Origin: Dethiosulfovibrio faecalis
Lineage (GTDB): Bacteria; Synergistota; Synergistia; Synergistales; Dethiosulfovibrionaceae
Reading direction: 5' to 3'
Length of the DNA: 64,000 bases
Assembly (NCBI RefSeq): GCF_021568795.1
Contig: NZ_JAKGUE010000003.1
Coordinates: 124,001 to 188,000, forward strand
Shown here: piece after piece, positions 32,315 through 45,042 of the stretch
Layout of the letters: every line of letters begins with the position of its first letter
Numbering within the stretch: the stretch's first letter is position 1
Position numbers and translations under genes: made by a program
The notes under the pieces: model-generated
What the model saw: the letters and a program-made list of their open reading frames with translations, nothing else
Databases searched by the model: none
Told to the model about the DNA's origin: nothing

Positions 32315-33027
32315 CTCTTCGCCTCCCACCAGGGTTTTTTCTCCGCCTTGCCCGGCCGTCTAGGGTAGACCTCCGGACAGTGGGATTTCTTTCGGAACGC
32401 CAACAGGAATCCCTGACGTTCTCCGTTTACGTAGTCGAATATCCTGGGATAGTCCAGCCCCAAAAGATCCCACCGTCCCTTTATCTTTGCCAGCTCCTCC
32501 CGATATCCCGGACCTTTTATGGACAGAGCGGTGCCCCCTAACTTCACGAGGGGGGAGAGGTACTCTGCCACTATGCCGGCCTCGCTGACCCCTCTTGCCG
32601 CCGCCATGTCGTATACCTCCCTTTCCTCCAGGGCCAGCTGTTCCGACCGTCCCCATATGACCGAGACGTTCTCTACCTCCAACTCGGATACTATTGACTC
32701 CAGAGCTCCGGTTTTCTTGCTCTGGCTGTCCAGAAGGGTTATCTCCAGGTCGGGGCGGCATATTGCCCAGGCGAGCCCCGGAAGCCCGCCTCCCGTTCCC
32801 ACGTCGACGACCCTGCCGGAATGGGGCAGGAGCTCCAGTGCGAAAAGGGAGTCTCTGACGTGGTCCTTCCAAATGGTATCCTCGTCCTTGGGGCCCGTTA
32901 GCCTGACCTTGTCGGAGGACCATCGAGCCAGGATTTCCGAATAGACCCTGAGTTTCGTCTCGATATTCTCGTCCAGAGGGGGGATTTCCACCGTTACGTG
33001 AACCTGATCCGACGTGCAGTAATTCAT
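32311..33027 (-). CDS. rsmG: 16S rRNA (guanine527-N7)-methyltransferase RsmG
   Basis: 238 residues from the ATG at 33027, which has GAGGG nearby; the longer frame to 33105 lies inside lysR. SAM motif DVGTGGGLPGLAWA near 75, then TLLDSQSKKTGALES and RGVSEAGIVAEYLSPL. It methylates G527 of 16S rRNA. The order rsmG-parA-parB is standard; a second ParB-like noc gene, present there in Bacillus, is absent in this window. Overlaps lysR by four bases (ATGA). Confidence 0.95.
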   Translation of the reverse strand: MNYCTSDQVHVTVEIPPLDENIETKLRVYSEILARWSSDKVRLTGPKDEDTIWKDHVRDSLFALELLPHSGRVVDVGTGGGLPGLAWAICRPDLEITLLDSQSKKTGALESIVSELEVENVSVIWGRSEQLALEEREVYDMAAARGVSEAGIVAEYLSPLVKLGGTALSIKGPGYREELAKIKGRWDLLGLDYPRIFDYVNGERQGFLLAFRKKSHCPEVYPRRPGKAEKKPWWEAKR

Positions 33028-33923
33028 AGCGCCGCCCTCTTTTCCAGTATTCTCCTGAAGGCCCAGCCGGCGAAACTCAACCCGGTAGACTGTCTGTAGA
33101 AACATACCACGTCTATTCTCTTCATCTCCAATCCTTCTATAGATAGGGATACCAGATCCCCTTTTCTCAGGTCCTCCGCAACCGTGCCGTGGTTTATGAA
33201 AGCGACTCCCACGCCGGCCTTGACGAAGGCCCTGGCCACGTCCCTGCTGTTGACGAAGGTGCCCCTGTGTTGTCCCACCCTCTGTTCCATCAGATACTCC
33301 TGTACGAAGGGACAGAGGGAGCAGTCCTTCTCGTAGAGTATAAGCTGTTCCTCGTTCAGGTGGGAGGGGGTCACCGACGGCAGAGTTGCGAGGGGATGGT
33401 CTTTCGACGCCACCAGGACTATATGGTCCTCTCCTATTGTGAAGGTCTTCAGGTCCTTGTCGTTGAAGGTCCTGGCGTTCCCCTCCAGTATGGCTATCTC
33501 TATCTCTCCTCTTCGGAGCATCTCCTGTATGTCCGGGTCGTTTCCGGTCTGTACAGTCATGGCCACGTCGGGATGCTCGTTTCTGAACGCCTCCACCAGA
33601 GAGGGAAGGACCATCGTCCCCACGTAGGTGGACACCCCGAGCTCCAGTTTACCGTATCTCATTGCCTGCATCTCCCTGAATTTTCCCGGGATGGAATCGG
33701 CTCTCTGGAGGACGTCCAGCGCCAGTGTGTAGAGGGCGTTCCCCTCGGGGGTGAGGGACAGGCTCCTTCCCCTCCTGTTGAAGAGGACGACGTCGTACTC
33801 TTTTTCCAGAGTCGCGATATGCTGGCTCACCGAGGGCTGAGACAGATATAGCCTTTCGGCTGTCCTGGTGAAGGATCCTTCCTCCACCAGGGTGCAGAAA
33901 GTCCTAAGTTGATGTAGCGACAT
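33024..33923 (-). CDS. LysR family transcriptional regulator
   Basis: 299 residues. Winged helix in the first 60 (FTRTAERLYLSQPSVSQHIATLEKEY) and an effector-binding domain of LysR type after residue 90. It is divergent from the M20-like gene at 34080 with a 156-base gap, and the island at 34-52 kb follows, so it is the best candidate regulator of that island; the effector could be a ureide, a D-amino acid or a hydantoin. It is also translationally coupled to rsmG, an unusual link. The gap contains an imperfect inverted repeat TCCTATA...TATAGGA (about 33955-34004) that could be its operator. Confidence 0.88.
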   Translation of the reverse strand: MSLHQLRTFCTLVEEGSFTRTAERLYLSQPSVSQHIATLEKEYDVVLFNRRGRSLSLTPEGNALYTLALDVLQRADSIPGKFREMQAMRYGKLELGVSTYVGTMVLPSLVEAFRNEHPDVAMTVQTGNDPDIQEMLRRGEIEIAILEGNARTFNDKDLKTFTIGEDHIVLVASKDHPLATLPSVTPSHLNEEQLILYEKDCSLCPFVQEYLMEQRVGQHRGTFVNSRDVARAFVKAGVGVAFINHGTVAEDLRKGDLVSLSIEGLEMKRIDVVCFYRQSTGLSFAGWAFRRILEKRAAL

Positions 33924-34079: not shown

Positions 34080-35300
34080 ATGGACGAAGCCAGACGGGAC
34101 GATCTGGTCCAACTCTGTCAGGGGCTGGTTAGATATCCCAGCCCCTCCGGAGGGGAGGGCGAGATCGCCGCCTTTTTGCGGTCCGTCATGGTGTCCCTGG
34201 GTTACGACTCCGTCCAGGTCGACGGTTACGGCAGCCTGATAGGCACGGTGGACTTCGGTTCTCCCGGTCCAACTCTGCTCTTGGAGGCCCAGATGGATCA
34301 CGCCGAGTCGGGAGACCCGGGAGAGTGGCGCCATTATCCCTTCGGGGGCCGGGTCGAATCGGGTCGGATCTACGGTCGGGGTGCCACCGATCAGAAGGGC
34401 ATATTGGCCGCCATGGTGCTGGCCCTGGCCTGGCTGAAGCAGGATAGGGGAGATTTACTCTGCGGCAGGGCAGTCATGGCCGCCATGGTGCACCAGGAAA
34501 GCTTCGAGAGGGCCGCCTCCAAACTGGTGGCGGAGAGGGTGAGGCCCGACGGGGTAGTGTCCGGAGAGCCGTCGGACCTGACGGTGGAACGGGGGCAGAG
34601 GGGAAGGGCCTCCATAGCGGTAGAGACCTTCGGCCGTATGGAACACAGCTCCATGGGGGACAACAGCTCGGCTGACATGATGGTCCGACTGGTCTCCCGG
34701 CTCAAGGAGGACTACGTTCCAAAGGTGGACCCCTTCTTCGGAGAGGCTACCATGACTCTAACCAGCCTTCACTCCTATCCGGCGGACGTAAGGACCACCA
34801 TGCCCATCCGTTGCAGGGGCACCTTCGACAGAAGGATCCTTCCCGGCGAGACCGCCCAGTCCGTGATGAGAGATATAGAGGCGTCCATTTCCTCCGCCAT
34901 GAGGGATATCCCGGGCTTGAAGGCTCGGGCCTTTCTGGACGGAGGCGACGGACACTGCTACACCGGAGCGATGATAAGCTCCGAGGGATTCGCTCCGGCC
35001 TGGGAGATCGAGGCGGAGCATCCCTTCGTAGAAATGGTCCTGGACGGCGTCGCCGAGGCGGGGCTGGAACCGGTTCTCTCGAACAGGTCCGGTTTCGGAA
35101 CCAACGGATGTATATATGGAGGAGACATGTCGGTCCCCACGGTGGTCTTCGGCCCCTCAAGGAGGGAGCTCGCCCACGTGGTGGACGAGTACATAGAGGT
35201 GGATCAACTGGCCCTCGGCTGTAAATGCTACGGTTCCATAGCCGAGAAGTTTCTTGCTCGAAAGGAGGAGATCCCAGGTGGGGAAGGCAGTAAAGCTTGA
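34080..35300 (+). CDS. M20 peptidase-like protein with substituted active-site residues
   Basis: 406 residues, M20/ArgE-DapE-YgeY type. Compared with the YgeY gene at 42814, the first metal-ligand histidine ([10 protein letters not shown]) is Gln here (EAQMDHAESG), and the catalytic Glu pair (VQEED) is VHQES. The Asp in GRGATDQKG, the Glu in SGEPSD and the late AHVVDE His are kept. The protein could thus be a weak or non-catalytic homologue that binds the substrate, or it may use different ligands. Start ATG 34080 has AGGAGG eight bases upstream. It overlaps the next gene by 23 bases. Confidence 0.8.
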   Translation: MDEARRDDLVQLCQGLVRYPSPSGGEGEIAAFLRSVMVSLGYDSVQVDGYGSLIGTVDFGSPGPTLLLEAQMDHAESGDPGEWRHYPFGGRVESGRIYGRGATDQKGILAAMVLALAWLKQDRGDLLCGRAVMAAMVHQESFERAASKLVAERVRPDGVVSGEPSDLTVERGQRGRASIAVETFGRMEHSSMGDNSSADMMVRLVSRLKEDYVPKVDPFFGEATMTLTSLHSYPADVRTTMPIRCRGTFDRRILPGETAQSVMRDIEASISSAMRDIPGLKARAFLDGGDGHCYTGAMISSEGFAPAWEIEAEHPFVEMVLDGVAEAGLEPVLSNRSGFGTNGCIYGGDMSVPTVVFGPSRRELAHVVDEYIEVDQLALGCKCYGSIAEKFLARKEEIPGGEGSKA

Positions 35301-36513
35301 GTGCGCCATCTGCGGAAAGATCTACGATCCCGATCCGGAGTTCACCACCTGTCCCGACTGCGGCATAGACGGGACCATGCACGTTCTCTACGATTACGAG
35401 GAAATCAGGGAGACCATGACCGCAGAGTCTCTGGCGAGGGATCCGAACAGGTCCCTGTGGCGCTACCTTTCACTGCTTCCGGTTTCGGACGTCGATGCCG
35501 TCCCGGCACTTCAGGTGGGGTGGACCCCCCTATACGATTCCAAGGCCCTGGCCGAGAGATACGGCGTAGGTCGCCTTCTGGTCAAGGACGACGGAAGAAA
35601 CCCCACGGCGTCGTACAAGGACAGGGCAAGCGCCGTCGCAACCGCCATGGCGAAGGAACTCGGACGGGACGTGGTGGCCTGCGCCTCCACCGGCAACGCC
35701 GCCAGCTCCCTGTCGGGATTCGCGGCTGTCTCCGGGCTGAAAAGCGTGATATTCGTTCCCGAGGCCGCGCCGGAGGCCAAGGTAACCCAGCTTCTGGTCT
35801 ACGGATCCCGGGTGTTCTCCGTCAGGGGAGACTACGAGGAGACGGTCAATCTCGCCATAGAGGCCATAGATTCGGAAGGCTGGTACAACAGAAACTGCGC
35901 CATTAACCCATATCTGGTGGAGGGAAAGAAGACCTGCGCCATGGAGATAGCCGAGCAGATGGGATGGAAGGTCCCGGACAGGGTTATAACCTCCGTCGGA
36001 GACGGCTGCATAATAAGCAGCCTCTACAAAGGATTCCTGGACCTCAAGAGGATCGGCCTGATAGACCGGATTCCGGCCATAACCGGCGTCCAGGCAGAGG
36101 GAGCCTGTCCCATCCACGACGCGGTACTGTCCGGAGCGGATAGGGTGACCTTCGGTCCCGCCGATACCTTGGCGGACAGCATATCGGTTGGCGCTCCCAG
36201 GAACTGGGCCAAGGCGCTGAACGCCGTGAGGTCCAGCGGAGGGACCACCGTGACCGTGTCGGACCAGGAGATACTGGAGGCCATGACGGAGCTGGCCCGG
36301 GCCACAGGGGTCTTCGGAGAGCCAGCCGGCGTGACGTCCTTCGCCGGATTCAGGAAGATGGCGGACCAGGGAACGCTGGGATCGGACGAGACGGTCGCCA
36401 TAGTGGTGACGGGAAACGGACTCAAGGACGCGGCCTCGGCCAGAAAAGCGGTGGAGGCACCTACATCGGTGGATCCGTCGATGGAGTCGTTCCTCAAGGT
36501 GTTGAAACGGTAG
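35278..36513 (+). CDS. Threonine synthase-like PLP enzyme with zinc-ribbon start
   Basis: 411 residues from GTG 35278 (AAAGGAGGA eight bases upstream). First 40 residues carry CAICGK and CPDCG pairs typical of the zinc-ribbon that begins some threonine synthases. Fold-type-II PLP domain: lysine in NPTASYKDRASAVA, STGNAASSLSGF and VTSVGDGCIISSLYKG. The family makes threonine from phosphohomoserine or removes ammonia from diaminopropionate and related amino acids. Its place in the ureide island suggests the second. It could also be a real threonine synthase; no threonine genes lie near. Confidence 0.75.
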   Translation: MGKAVKLECAICGKIYDPDPEFTTCPDCGIDGTMHVLYDYEEIRETMTAESLARDPNRSLWRYLSLLPVSDVDAVPALQVGWTPLYDSKALAERYGVGRLLVKDDGRNPTASYKDRASAVATAMAKELGRDVVACASTGNAASSLSGFAAVSGLKSVIFVPEAAPEAKVTQLLVYGSRVFSVRGDYEETVNLAIEAIDSEGWYNRNCAINPYLVEGKKTCAMEIAEQMGWKVPDRVITSVGDGCIISSLYKGFLDLKRIGLIDRIPAITGVQAEGACPIHDAVLSGADRVTFGPADTLADSISVGAPRNWAKALNAVRSSGGTTVTVSDQEILEAMTELARATGVFGEPAGVTSFAGFRKMADQGTLGSDETVAIVVTGNGLKDAASARKAVEAPTSVDPSMESFLKVLKR

Positions 36514-36581
36514 AGACGTAATCCAATAAATTTTATTTTGTAATATAAAAATACATAAATATGAGGAGAGTGTGTCTAAAG

Positions 36582-38060
36582 ATGTCGTATAACATAATAG
36601 ACCTCACCGTAAACGAGAAACAGCTCGAAAGCGCCGTCGAGAGGGCCAGGGAAAAGGAAATCGTAATTCCCACCTTCGCCGAGATGAAGGACCCCTCGAA
36701 GGTCCCGGCCAAGATAAAGGAAAAGCTGGGCTCGGTGGGACTCTGGGACGTGGATCCTCTGAACCTGTTTCGAATAACCTGGAAGAACGAGCCGGTCAAG
36801 GACGGCGGACTGTACGACGGGGTCAACTTCGTCGAGCTTCCCGAATCACTCACCGGGGTCAAGGCCAGGATCTTCGCCCTGGTGGGAAAGTGGTTCCCCA
36901 CCGGAGCCCACAAGGTAGGGGCGACCTTCGGCTGTCTCGCCCCCAGGCTCGTGACGGGGCAGTTCGACCCGGTGAACCAAAGGGCGGTCTGGCCCTCCAC
37001 CGGAAACTACTGCCGCGGCGGAGCCTACAACGCCCAGCTCCTGGGATGCGAGTCCATAGCCATTCTTCCCGAGGGAATGAGCCGCGAGCGTTTCGACTGG
37101 CTCAAGAAGGTGGCCGGAGAGGTAATAGCCACCCCCGGATCGGAGAGCAACGTCAAGGAGATATTCGACAAGACCTGGGAGCTCAGGAAGACCAGGGACA
37201 ACGTGGTCATCTTCAACCAGTTCGACGAGATGGGCAACCCCCTCTGGCACTACGTCGTGACGGGAAACGCCATAGAGGAGATGCTGAAGCAGGTGATGGG
37301 CAAGGACGACCGCTACTTCGGCTGCGCCTTCACCACCGGGTCCGCCGGGACCATAGCCTGCGGCGACTACATGAAGGAGCTTTTCCCTGCGAGCAAGATA
37401 GCCGCCTCCGAGGCCCTTCAGTGTCCCACCCTTCTATGGAACGGATGGGGAGCCCACAGGATAGAGGGCATAGGGGACAAGCACGTGCCCTGGGTCCACA
37501 ACGTTAAGAACACCGACATGATAATCGACGTGGACGACGAGGACTCCATGGCCTGGATCCGGCTGTTCAACGAGCCAGCCGGAAGGGACTACCTCAAGAA
37601 GAAGGGAGTGCCGGAGGATCTGGTGGATTCCCTCGACCTGGTGGGGATCTCCGGAGCGGCCAACATAATATCCTGCATCAAGATGGCCAAGTACTACGAG
37701 CTGACAGAGAAGGACGTCCTGGTGACCGTCCTCACCGACTCGATGGAGCTGTACAACTCCCGTCTGGCCGAGATGGAGGAGGAGTACGGTCCCTACGGCG
37801 AGATAGACGCCGCGGTGGACTTCCACCAGCACATCAGAGGGCTCTCGGTGGACTACATGCAGGAACTTTCCTACAGGGACAGAAAGAGGGTCCACGACCT
37901 CAAGTACTACACCTGGGTGGAGCAGCAGGGCAAGTCCATGGAGGAGCTGGACGCTCAGTGGTACGACGCCGAGAACTACTGGGGCGAGATCCACGGCATG
38001 GCGGACAAGATAGACGAGAAGATCAGAGAGTTCAACGACAAGACCGGATTGCTGAAATAA
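36582..38060 (+). CDS. TrpB-like PLP-dependent enzyme of unknown reaction
   Basis: 492 residues. The PLP lysine region FPTGAHKVGATFG resembles NHTGSHKxN of tryptophan synthase beta; the GNYCRGGAYNAQLLGC and TTGSAGTIACGDYMKE stretches bind PLP phosphate. Clearly a fold-type-II enzyme but longer than TrpB, with an extra ~70 residues at the end (EIDAAVDFHQHIRGLSVDYM and after). It could be a beta-elimination or deamination enzyme acting on the product of the pathway. ATG 36582 with AGGAGAG eleven bases upstream was chosen over ATG 36561. An AT-rich leader of 68 bases precedes it. Confidence 0.8.
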   Translation: MSYNIIDLTVNEKQLESAVERAREKEIVIPTFAEMKDPSKVPAKIKEKLGSVGLWDVDPLNLFRITWKNEPVKDGGLYDGVNFVELPESLTGVKARIFALVGKWFPTGAHKVGATFGCLAPRLVTGQFDPVNQRAVWPSTGNYCRGGAYNAQLLGCESIAILPEGMSRERFDWLKKVAGEVIATPGSESNVKEIFDKTWELRKTRDNVVIFNQFDEMGNPLWHYVVTGNAIEEMLKQVMGKDDRYFGCAFTTGSAGTIACGDYMKELFPASKIAASEALQCPTLLWNGWGAHRIEGIGDKHVPWVHNVKNTDMIIDVDDEDSMAWIRLFNEPAGRDYLKKKGVPEDLVDSLDLVGISGAANIISCIKMAKYYELTEKDVLVTVLTDSMELYNSRLAEMEEEYGPYGEIDAAVDFHQHIRGLSVDYMQELSYRDRKRVHDLKYYTWVEQQGKSMEELDAQWYDAENYWGEIHGMADKIDEKIREFNDKTGLLK

Positions 38061-38082: not shown

Positions 38083-38117
38083 GACCCCCTCTTGAGGACC
38101 TCGAGAGGGGGCCTTTT
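38083..38117 (+). terminator. Terminator after the TrpB-like gene
   Basis: Stem of 13 bases per arm (about 38085-38097 and 38099-38111, one G-T pair) followed by TTTT. Confidence 0.8.
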
Positions 38118-39819: not shown

Positions 39820-40852
39820 ATGAAGCGTAGAGTGACGATTATAGCCCTGGCGTTGGTGGTGGCCCTGTGTTCCTCCGCTCTGGCGGGACCTAAGGTCCTC
39901 AAACTGGCCCATCTGAACCCTCAGCAGCCCTTTGAAAACGCAACTGGAGCCATGGCGGCGGTGTTCAAGAGCATGGTCGAGGCCGGTACCAACGGCTCGG
40001 TTCAGGTGAAGATATTCCCGGCGGGACAGCTCGGCAACGAGAGAGAGACCATGGAGCAGGTCAAGGTCGGAGTGGTCCAGAGCTACATAGCCTCCGCCGG
40101 AGGAATGGCCCCCTTCTACCCCCTTTACGGCGTCCTGCGCAGTTCCCAACTACGCGGTGGCCTGGAAGGTCTTCGACGGCCCCTTCGGCGAGTATCTCAA
40201 GGAGGATATCAAAAAGGTCACCGGCTTCAGGGTCCTCGGTTTCGGCGAGGCGGGTGGTTTCTTCCAGCTCTCCAACAGCGTCCGTCCCATAAAGACCGTG
40301 GAGGACATGAAGGGTCTCAAGATGCGCACCATGACCCTTCCCACCCATCAGAACCTCATGAAGACCTACGGAGCCGCCGCTACCCCCATAGCCTGGGCCG
40401 AGGTCTACACGGCGCTCCAGACCGGAGTGGCCGACGGTCAGCATAACCCCCTTCCCATAGTCCTTCTCGGGAAGCTCTACGAGGTTCAGAAGTACCTCAC
40501 CCTGACCAACCACATATACAGCACCTACTGCTGGATCATGAACGACGAGTTCTGGGACGGCCTCAGCGATGACGAAAAAGAGGTAGTCAACTCCTCCGCT
40601 ATAACCGCCATAGTGGCCGGACGGGGCCTCAACAGGATCATCGAGGGCTCCGATAGAGGACTTCCAACCATCATAGAGAAGGGCATGGAGGTCAACACCC
40701 CGACTCCGGAGGCCATGGAACAGTTCCGCGAGATGGGCAAGGACTCGGCAATGGTATTCATAAAGGAGAACTTCGGCGATAAGGGCGTGGAGATAGCGGA
40801 TCTCTATCTCGAGGCCATAGACGAAGCAGTGGACGAGCTGGAAGACGATTAG
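39820..40852 (+). pseudogene. dctP: TRAP transporter solute-binding protein DctP, frameshifted
   Basis: Two overlapping frames together make a DctP-type periplasmic binding protein. The first (from ATG 39820) has a signal peptide ending near LCSSALAG and reads to VGVVQSYIASAGGMAPFYP, LYGVL, then loses homology near 40139. The second frame resumes at about 40142 with AVPNYAVAWKVFDGPFGEY and runs to 40852, ending in IADLYLEAIDEAVDELEDD. Family members read GVLD-LPF-xVPNY here, so about 11 bases are missing between CTG and GCAGTT. It is either a real disruption or a sequencing error; the permeases just after are intact. Confidence 0.85.
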
Positions 40853-42813: not shown

Positions 42814-44025
42814 TTGAAGATCCCTTTTGATCAGGTGGTGGCGAAGGCGGAGGAGTACAAGGACGATATGACCCGTTTCCTCAGGGACATGATAGCCCTG
42901 CCCAGCGAGAGCTGCGGCGAGGAGGCCGTCATAAAGAGGATCAAGGAGGAGATGGAGAAGGTAGGTTTCGACAGGGTGGAGATAGATCCCATGGGCAACA
43001 TCCTGGGATATCTGGGACGGGGCAAGCACCTGATCGCCATGGACGCCCACATAGACACGGTCGGCATAGGGGAGATAAAGAACTGGAAGTTCGATCCCTA
43101 TAAGGGCATGGAGGAAGGCGACGTCGTAGGAGGCCGCGGAGCCAGCGACCAGGAGGGCGGAATGGCCGCCATGGTCTACGCCGGAAAGATAATAAAGGAC
43201 CTGGGGCTCGAGGACGACTACACCCTTCTCGTCACTGGGACGGTCCAGGAGGAGGACTGCGACGGCCTCTGCTGGCAGTACATAATAGAGGAGGACGGAA
43301 TACGTCCCGAGTTCGTCGTCAGCACCGAGCCCACCGACTGCCGGATCTACCGGGGCCAGAGGGGAAGGATGGAGATAAAGGTCGAGACCGGAGGCATAAG
43401 CTGCCACGGCTCCGCCCCTGAGAGAGGGGAGAACGCCATATACAAGATGGCCCCTATCGTCATGGAGCTTAGAGCCCTCCACGAGAACCTGAAGGACGAC
43501 GACTTCCTGGGCAAGGGCAGCCTGACCATATCCCAGATATTCCACAAATCCCCGTCCCGGTGCGCCGTGGCGGACGGATGCACCATATCGATAGACCGCC
43601 GTCTGACCTGGGGCGAGACCTGGGAGGGAGCCCTTCAGGAGGTCAGAAACCTTCCCGCCGTCAAGGAGGCCGAGGCGGAGGTGTCTCTCTACACCTACGA
43701 GAGGCCTTCCTGGACCGGCCTGGTATACCCGACCGACTGCTACTTCCCGGCCTGGAAGCTGGAGGAGGAGCACCCGGCCTGCAGGACCCTTGTGGACGGC
43801 TACAGAAGGCTGTTCGACCGGGAGCCCGTGGTGGACAAATGGACCTTCTCCACCAACGGCGTCTCCATAATGGGCCGCCACGGCATACCGGTCATAGGCT
43901 TCGGACCAGGCAAGGAAGAGGAGGCCCACGCCCCCAACGAGAAGACCTGGAAAAGCCACCTGGTGACCTGCGCCGCCATGTACGCCGTCATCCCGGGAAT
44001 CTACGTGGACGAACACTGCGATTAA
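42814..44025 (+). CDS. ygeY: YgeY-family M20 hydrolase
   Basis: 403 residues, equal to E. coli YgeY. All metal and catalytic residues are kept: [40 protein letters not shown] and the late [10 protein letters not shown]. YgeY acts with YgeW in anaerobic ureide or purine breakdown clusters; its exact substrate is an N-carbamoyl or acyl amino acid by inference. It starts at TTG 42814; GAGGCG lies some ten bases upstream. The next gene is ygeW after 21 bases, the same neighbour order as in E. coli minus ygeX. Confidence 0.9.
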
Positions 44026-44046: not shown

Positions 44047-45042
44047 ATGAACACGATATTTAGAGGCAAGGACTTCATTACACTGGAGGAGTGGACCAAG
44101 GAGGAGATAGACACCCTCCTGGAGGTATCCAAGGACCTGAAAAAGGACTTCGCCATGGGCAAGACGACCCCCTATCTGCCATACCAGACCGTCTTTCTCA
44201 TGTTCTTCGAGCAGTCCACCAGGACCAGAAACTCCATGGAGGCGGGGATAACCCAGCTCGGCGGACACGCCCATTTCCTGGACACCAGCACCATGCAGGT
44301 ATCCCACGGAGAGGTCGCCAAGGACACAGCGGTCATCCTATCCCGTATGGGCCACGCCATAGCCTGCCGCAACTGCTTCTGGGGAATAGGAAACGCCTAT
44401 CTGAGGGACATGGCCAAGTATTCCTCCGCTCCTATCCTCAACCTTCAGGACGACCTGTTCCATCCCATGCAGGGACTGGCGGACCTGTTGACCATACAGG
44501 AGAAGAGGGGCAGCGACGTCAAAAACCTCAAGGTCTCCATCATCTGGGCCTACGCCACAACCCACAAGAAGCCCATCTCCGTGCCTCTGACCCAGAGCCT
44601 TCTGTTCCCTCGATACGGCATGGACGTTACCTTGGCCTATCCCGAGGGCTACGACCTTCCCGACTGGGTCGTCGAGCAGGCCAAGAAGCACGCCGAGAGC
44701 ACCGGCGGATCCTTCAGGATAACCCACGACCAGGAGGAGGCCTACAAGGACGCCGACGTGGTCTTCCCCAAGAACTGGGGCTCCTGGTTCAAGAACCCAA
44801 GCACCGAGGTGGTAGACGCCGGTCTGGAGGCCAACAAGGGCTGGAAGTGCACCGAGGAACGTTTCGCCCTGACGAACAAGGACTGCCTCTACATGCACGC
44901 CCTTCCGGCGGACCGGCAGAACGAGGTGGACGCCTCGGTCATAGACGGCCCCAACTCGGCCATCTACGACGAGGCGGAGAACCGCCTTCACACGGCCAAA
45001 TCGGTCATGGCTCTCACCATGGGAGGCAGAGGCCGCCAGTAG
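44047..45042 (+). CDS. ygeW: Knotted carbamoyltransferase YgeW
   Basis: 331 residues. Carbamoyl-phosphate loop FEQSTRTRNSMEAG near 57 and LDDLFHPMQGLADLLT are typical of aspartate/ornithine transcarbamoylases; the longer middle segment and the PADRQNEVDASVID region fit the knotted YgeW subgroup. It would transfer the carbamoyl group of an N-carbamoyl diamino or amino acid to phosphate. The carbamoyl phosphate can be used by carbamate kinase at 51203. Ribosome site AAAGGGG. It ends at a strong terminator. Confidence 0.93.
   Translation: MNTIFRGKDFITLEEWTKEEIDTLLEVSKDLKKDFAMGKTTPYLPYQTVFLMFFEQSTRTRNSMEAGITQLGGHAHFLDTSTMQVSHGEVAKDTAVILSRMGHAIACRNCFWGIGNAYLRDMAKYSSAPILNLQDDLFHPMQGLADLLTIQEKRGSDVKNLKVSIIWAYATTHKKPISVPLTQSLLFPRYGMDVTLAYPEGYDLPDWVVEQAKKHAESTGGSFRITHDQEEAYKDADVVFPKNWGSWFKNPSTEVVDAGLEANKGWKCTEERFALTNKDCLYMHALPADRQNEVDASVIDGPNSAIYDEAENRLHTAKSVMALTMGGRGRQ

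Follow-up and report, generated by a model that had tools for sequence, protein, structure and literature searches.

The 406-residue protein encoded at positions 34080-35300 of the window (the 64,000-nucleotide stretch of Dethiosulfovibrio faecalis DNA analysed here) is an M20 metallohydrolase homologue in which two residues of the catalytic core have been exchanged for glutamine: the first metal-binding His is Gln71 and the first Glu of the catalytic pair is Gln139. Because both exchanges are fixed in all 42 relatives of this QQ protein found in Synergistota, they represent a preserved change of function, not decay. The explanation preferred here, held with confidence just short of even, is that the QQ protein has lost hydrolysis and, keeping the closed M20 pocket, serves as a non-hydrolytic binding or accessory protein for the pathway of the adjoining PLP enzymes. 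It is not specifically a subunit of YgeY.

The gene lies on the forward strand and its frame is intact in the window, from ATG 34080 to the stop codon at 35298-35300. Translation could alternatively begin at an in-frame GTG (34071); ATG 34080 is preferred because of the upstream AAAGGAGG. The Peptidase_M20 and M20_dimer Pfam models both score above cut-off and span the entire protein, which, with its DapE-like fold, belongs to the M20 superfamily. The best NCBIfam model is that for YgeY, at a score below cut-off (NF009555, 285.5 vs 321 bits); the second YgeY model, TIGR03526, gives 178.2 bits (cut-off 321.5). In the tree the YgeY sequences make up a separate clade (support 100) and the QQ clade falls outside it. 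The QQ protein is rejected as a YgeY on both grounds.

Both exchanges had been proposed from comparison with the intact YgeY of the window, which reads AHID and QEED at these places, and both are borne out by an alignment that also takes in the sister clade and HiDapE (5vo3). Q71 and Q139 were matched to HiDapE H67 and E134 by HMM alignment and by structural matches; Glu134 is the proposed general acid/base of HiDapE (PMC5919655). The two-metal M20 ligand set (HxD, D, E, E, H) is incomplete, its first His being Gln in 42/42 proteins, and the general-base Glu that precedes the ligand Glu is absent, with Gln standing in its place just as uniformly (42/42). The remaining ligands, D73, D104, E140, E163 and H366, are retained, as had been stated, and so is the dimerisation His189. 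Among the 37 aligned QQ orthologues D73, D104, E140, H189 and H366 are invariant and E163 is nearly so. Loop V of DapE is positioned above the metal site, and in M20 dimers each subunit supplies a His194-type residue to the active site of the other (PMC4012986). The coordinates of these residues and of the surrounding genes are collected in Table 1.

Table 1. Positions in the window of the QQ gene, of codons for its active-site residues and of neighbouring features.
Feature	Position	Strand	Remarks
LysR-type regulator gene, divergent	33024..33923	-	adjoins every QQ gene with upstream sequence
QQ-type M20 paralogue, 406 aa	34080..35300	+	subject of this analysis
Q71 (CAG)	34290..34292	+	replaces first metal-ligand His (HiDapE H67); Q in 42/42, H in sister clade and YgeY
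D104-Q105	34389..34394	+	D104 is the bridging Asp, retained; position 105 is Met in sister clade, Gln also in YgeY
Q139 (CAG, 34494-34496) and E140	34494..34499	+	Q139 replaces catalytic Glu (HiDapE E134); E140 metal ligand retained
E163	34566..34568	+	metal-site Glu, retained; Asp in 1/37 orthologues
H189	34644..34646	+	dimerisation-domain His, trans-acting in M20 enzymes (HiDapE H194); retained
GFGTNGC	35091..35111	+	equivalent of DapE loop V over the metal site; T341 corresponds to HiDapE T325
H366	35175..35177	+	last metal-ligand His (HiDapE H349); retained
Threonine-synthase-like PLP enzyme	35278..36513	+	probable GTG start, 23-nt overlap with end of QQ gene
PALP-family PLP enzyme, 499 aa, CysK/CBS-like	36561..38060	+	conserved in the block
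Terminator-like hairpin, 12 pairs then CCTTTT	38085..38111	+	3' of the PALP gene
Intact YgeY (AHID...QEED)	42814..44025	+	TIGR03526 715.8 bits (cut-off 321.5); comparison protein

When 188 Synergistota genomes were searched with the window protein as query and a tree was built, 42 orthologues from six families (f1, f2, f3, f6, f7 and f10) fell into a single clade (SH-aLRT 99); the most distant of them share about 40% identity with the query. Q71 and Q139 are conserved in all 42 and occur in none of the other aligned M20 sequences. The codons at each site vary synonymously between CAG and CAA, and dN/dS between close QQ pairs is 0.07-0.15. With conserved catalytic residues lost, and fold and selection retained, the protein is a candidate pseudoenzyme. 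The sister clade (H-type) retains H71 and E139 and is also found in Bacillota, Acidobacteriota and one Chloroflexota genome. No QQ protein was found outside Synergistota in a contig scan whose seeds favour close relatives, and none among the best loci of 348 genomes of one Bacillota phylum; the first position is His in all 20 best Bacillota loci read. These searches do not prove that the QQ type is absent from other phyla. The most divergent QQ protein (L075, in genome G036) keeps both Gln, with Asp at position 163 and Ala at 344; a weaker SHMT homologue follows its gene.

Only six columns are fixed differently between 37 QQ and 30 H-type sequences: H71Q, M105Q, E139Q, I230L, C340G and S344C. 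Five of these (the exception is I230L) fall within the metal-site motifs or the loop that corresponds to DapE loop V. Q105 alone is not diagnostic, D-Q being found in YgeY as well. In the GFGTNGC loop, G340, C344 and a one-residue insertion are specific to the clade; C344 is present in 36/37 aligned QQ orthologues and is Ser in the sister clade. No shifted His or Glu that might compensate was found in the alignment near Q71 or Q139. H74 and E143 were considered as shifted replacements and rejected, since both occur in sister-clade proteins that retain the usual residues.

An AF2 model built with the family alignment (pLDDT 94.7, pTM 0.92) confidently predicts that the M20 fold and its closed arrangement are intact. 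Its best structural match is product-bound HiDapE (5vo3; Z 40.7, rmsd 2.4 over 363 residues), and 5-nitroanthranilate aminohydrolase is among the nearest folds. To judge by sequence, D104, E140 and H366 would constitute a complete Asp/Glu/His site that could hold one metal. The standard M20 reaction would be expected to fail once a site-1 ligand and the base are gone. Changing the first His of E. coli ArgE (H80A, H80K) gave insoluble protein (PMC4320195); a stable natural His-to-Gln exchange therefore implies adaptation, in which the Gln has been accommodated.

The divergent LysR gene lies upstream at each of the 32 QQ loci where sufficient sequence is available on that side, and downstream come the threonine-synthase-like gene (after the H-type gene where the two M20 genes are in tandem), usually SHMT, and the PALP gene. 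At three loci (L061, L065 and L075) there is no direct linkage to a threonine-synthase-like gene and SHMT directly follows QQ. In the window, the ribosome-binding site of the threonine-synthase-like gene is located inside the QQ gene, GTG 35278 being the probable start. The hairpin 3' of the PALP gene is also present in a close relative (L093) and was looked for and not found in L094 and L095; since only the window and its close relative have it in common, how far the transcription unit extends is uncertain. Tandem QQ and H-type genes occur in f2, f7 and f10, and in some genomes QQ adjoins the threonine-synthase-like gene where others have H-type. The order in the tandems is QQ-H in all three families, an arrangement that suggests tandem duplication in an ancestor and subsequent loss of one copy or the other.

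Several further features of these loci were observed. Most QQ operons (L069, L088, L059, L061 and others) have an SHMT gene inside them or close by, with the window's genus and L090 as exceptions; none was seen in those H-only operons that were read (L072, L077-L080, L087). In two Acidobacteriota loci (L043 and L044) threonine-synthase-like and PALP genes are located ~4 kb upstream of an H-type M20 gene and an N-acyl amino acid deacylase-like gene; the association of the threonine-synthase-like, PALP and H-type genes thus crosses phyla. The gene of the TRAP substrate-binding protein DctP (window 39820-40852) is split into two frames: near 40137-40138 it is without 11 bases that L093 has, by recent frameshift or assembly error.

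The frequent tandem arrangement of the two types argues for an old duplication and a subsequent switch of function. In Synergistota, duplication of an M20 amidohydrolase would have generated a gene pair, one copy (H-type) retaining the two-metal hydrolytic site, the other (QQ-type) exchanging its site-1 metal ligand and general base for Gln and altering the loop over the metal site, changes that would then have been fixed. Ordinary M20 amide hydrolysis would no longer be performed by the QQ protein. It may still bind, with a single metal or without any, a small ligand derived from an amino acid (its N-carbamoyl or N-acyl form), and would serve the pathway of the adjoining PLP enzymes; its likeliest role there is that of a binding or accessory protein without hydrolytic activity, made together with the threonine-synthase-like enzyme. 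What weighs against this explanation is that the other metal-site residues and the trans-acting His have all been retained, which is more than a pure scaffold needs; such full retention would fit an active site still in use, and Cys344 might have taken on a catalytic part. A role in binding or assistance, without hydrolysis, is slightly more likely than a new reaction, which the near-invariance of C344 and the fully retained pocket keep from being dismissed.

The notion that the QQ protein has changed its chemistry is a serious contender, if a tentative one: an active one-metal enzyme (transferase, cyclase, lyase or isomerase) would act on an N-carbamoyl or N-acyl amino acid with its metal on D104/E140/H366, with Q71 and Q139 shaping or polarising the substrate, and with C344 or E143 as the proton-transfer residue or nucleophile. 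The invariance of the three metal-site residues in 37/37 aligned orthologues favours this idea, as does the presence of C344, in place of the sister clade's Ser, in a loop that in DapE lies over the metal site. A precedent is provided by glutaminyl cyclase, an enzyme of related metallopeptidase fold that acts as a one-zinc acyltransferase with its metal on Asp159/Glu202/His330 and its second site empty (PMC11312887). The analogy is only partial, in that glutaminyl cyclase retains its catalytic Glu201 and its second-site residues, and the most divergent QQ protein lacks the Cys. A fuller version, in which the two-metal site has become a one-metal site supporting new chemistry (e.g., carbamoyl/acyl transfer, cyclisation or elimination) via Q71, Q139 and possibly Cys344, in an uncharacterised Synergistota pathway with the threonine-synthase-like enzyme, SHMT and PALP, is somewhat unlikely. 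That the QQ protein continues to work as an ordinary M20 hydrolase, Gln being a usable ligand and the base being supplied by another residue (such as E143), is very improbable. E143 is invariant and near Q139 in sequence, and in some genomes QQ occupies the place of H-type beside the threonine-synthase-like gene; however, the H-type clade, with a Glu139 of its own, has E143 just as invariably, and two separate fixed losses from the catalytic core are unexpected if the reaction is unchanged. Needless to say, the two lost catalytic residues are also what a decaying pseudogene or a sequencing error might leave behind, and nothing else speaks for either. The chance of such an origin is negligible, and it is rejected in view of the recurrence in 42 genomes, the low dN/dS, the intact frame in the window and the confident fold.

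The preliminary description had suggested either a pseudo-enzyme, possibly a partner of YgeY, or a changed chemistry. The fixed and specific substitutions lend good support to a pseudo-enzyme or a changed chemistry; partnership with YgeY finds no support as a general explanation. True YgeY is missing from two 99%-complete QQ genomes (G030 and G031), so that an obligatory YgeY partner is rejected; in the window YgeY is ~7.5 kb off, past the terminator-like hairpin, and the constant linkage of QQ is to the LysR and PLP-enzyme genes instead. An obligatory H-type partner is rejected likewise, H-type being missing from many complete QQ genomes (e.g., G000, G011, G016 and G032). By hand tabulation, 25/42 QQ genomes are without H-type and 15/42 without a YgeY of at least 600 bits; three (G028, G037 and G040), all of them fragmented assemblies, are without both, and the other 39 possess an intact M20 protein of YgeY type or sister type. 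The two types tend to replace each other (Fisher p = 1.8e-4, from hand-tabulated counts that ignore kinship and are not independent of ancestry). A heteromer of QQ with whichever intact M20 is present is thus possible. As the regulatory or structural subunit of such a heterodimer, with H-type where present and otherwise with YgeY, the QQ protein would present His189 in trans to the partner's site, in keeping with the manner in which M20 dimers complete each other's active sites via this His (PMC4012986), with the QQ-H tandems and with the mutual replacement of the candidate partners. Nevertheless, neither partner alone is obligatory, the three genomes without either stand against it, and QQ and YgeY share only about 27-31% identity, which makes a common dimer interface doubtful; the heterodimer is rather unlikely. 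The confidences placed in these explanations overlap in part, a heterodimer subunit also being a non-hydrolytic accessory protein.

More widely, the window carries genes for a hydantoinase-like protein, a carbamoyltransferase, carbamate kinase, YgeY, an N-acyl amino acid deacylase-like protein and transporters. This set is reminiscent of parts of the reductive urate pathway (PMC12507026, PMC12990295), in which YgeY carries out the last-but-one step (PMC12507026). A canonical urate cluster is rejected: SsnA over cut-off was not found in the organism's own genome (best match in G000, 325 vs 455.5 bits), and YgeX (2,3-diaminopropionate ammonia-lyase) over cut-off was found in 0/13 QQ genomes searched, its own included. 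With neither found over cut-off, the pathway substrate is probably best described as some amino acid bearing a ureido or N-acyl group. The Synergistota pathway around the QQ gene, with no SsnA over cut-off in this genus and no YgeX, may represent a new route akin to the degradation of ureides. The carbamoyltransferase gene (window 44047-45042), which adjoins YgeY, reaches the cut-off neither for YgeW nor for ornithine carbamoyltransferase and so may be of a distinct type. In a genus of the same family that has H-type but no QQ (G118), a true YgeX lies beside a second YgeY-like gene (C1:323022-324155 and 324257-325384).

M20 proteins are routinely annotated as peptidase, deacetylase or YgeY by overall similarity, and QQ genes would be mis-annotated if "hydrolase" were assumed. 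The QQ clade constitutes a clean, single-origin rewriting of a catalytic core, often with the ancestral-type hydrolase next door as internal control, and the role of an M20 fold that has lost its base and one metal ligand is testable through QQ/H pairs. A literature search on M20 pseudo-enzymes, in a limited searchable collection, found nothing relevant.

Among known systems, the M28-like glutaminyl cyclase offers an analogy drawn from the literature. By sequence, its Asp/Glu/His one-metal triad is the only part of the site that is surely complete in QQ; the residue after the bridging Asp is changed, and the position of the catalytic Glu (Glu201 in human QC) is occupied by Q139 in 42/42. Glutaminyl cyclase has its own base Glu and second-site residues, and no M20 dimerisation domain. 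With the desuccinylase DapE and the deacetylase ArgE the QQ protein has the closed DapE fold and the metal-site positions in common, whereas its site-1 His and general base have been replaced. YgeY (TIGR03526/NF009555) belongs to the same superfamily and shares the window neighbourhood, at about 30% identity and with AHID and QEED retained. The H-type sister clade, most members of which are 37-45% identical to the window protein, comes with the same fold, the same D73/D104/E140/E163/H366/H189 and the same operon position beside the threonine-synthase-like gene; it differs in having H71, E139, M105, C340 and S344 and in being without the one-residue insertion before loop V, and in Bacillota and Acidobacteriota it is a single gene beside hydantoinase-like and N-acyl amino acid deacylase-like genes.
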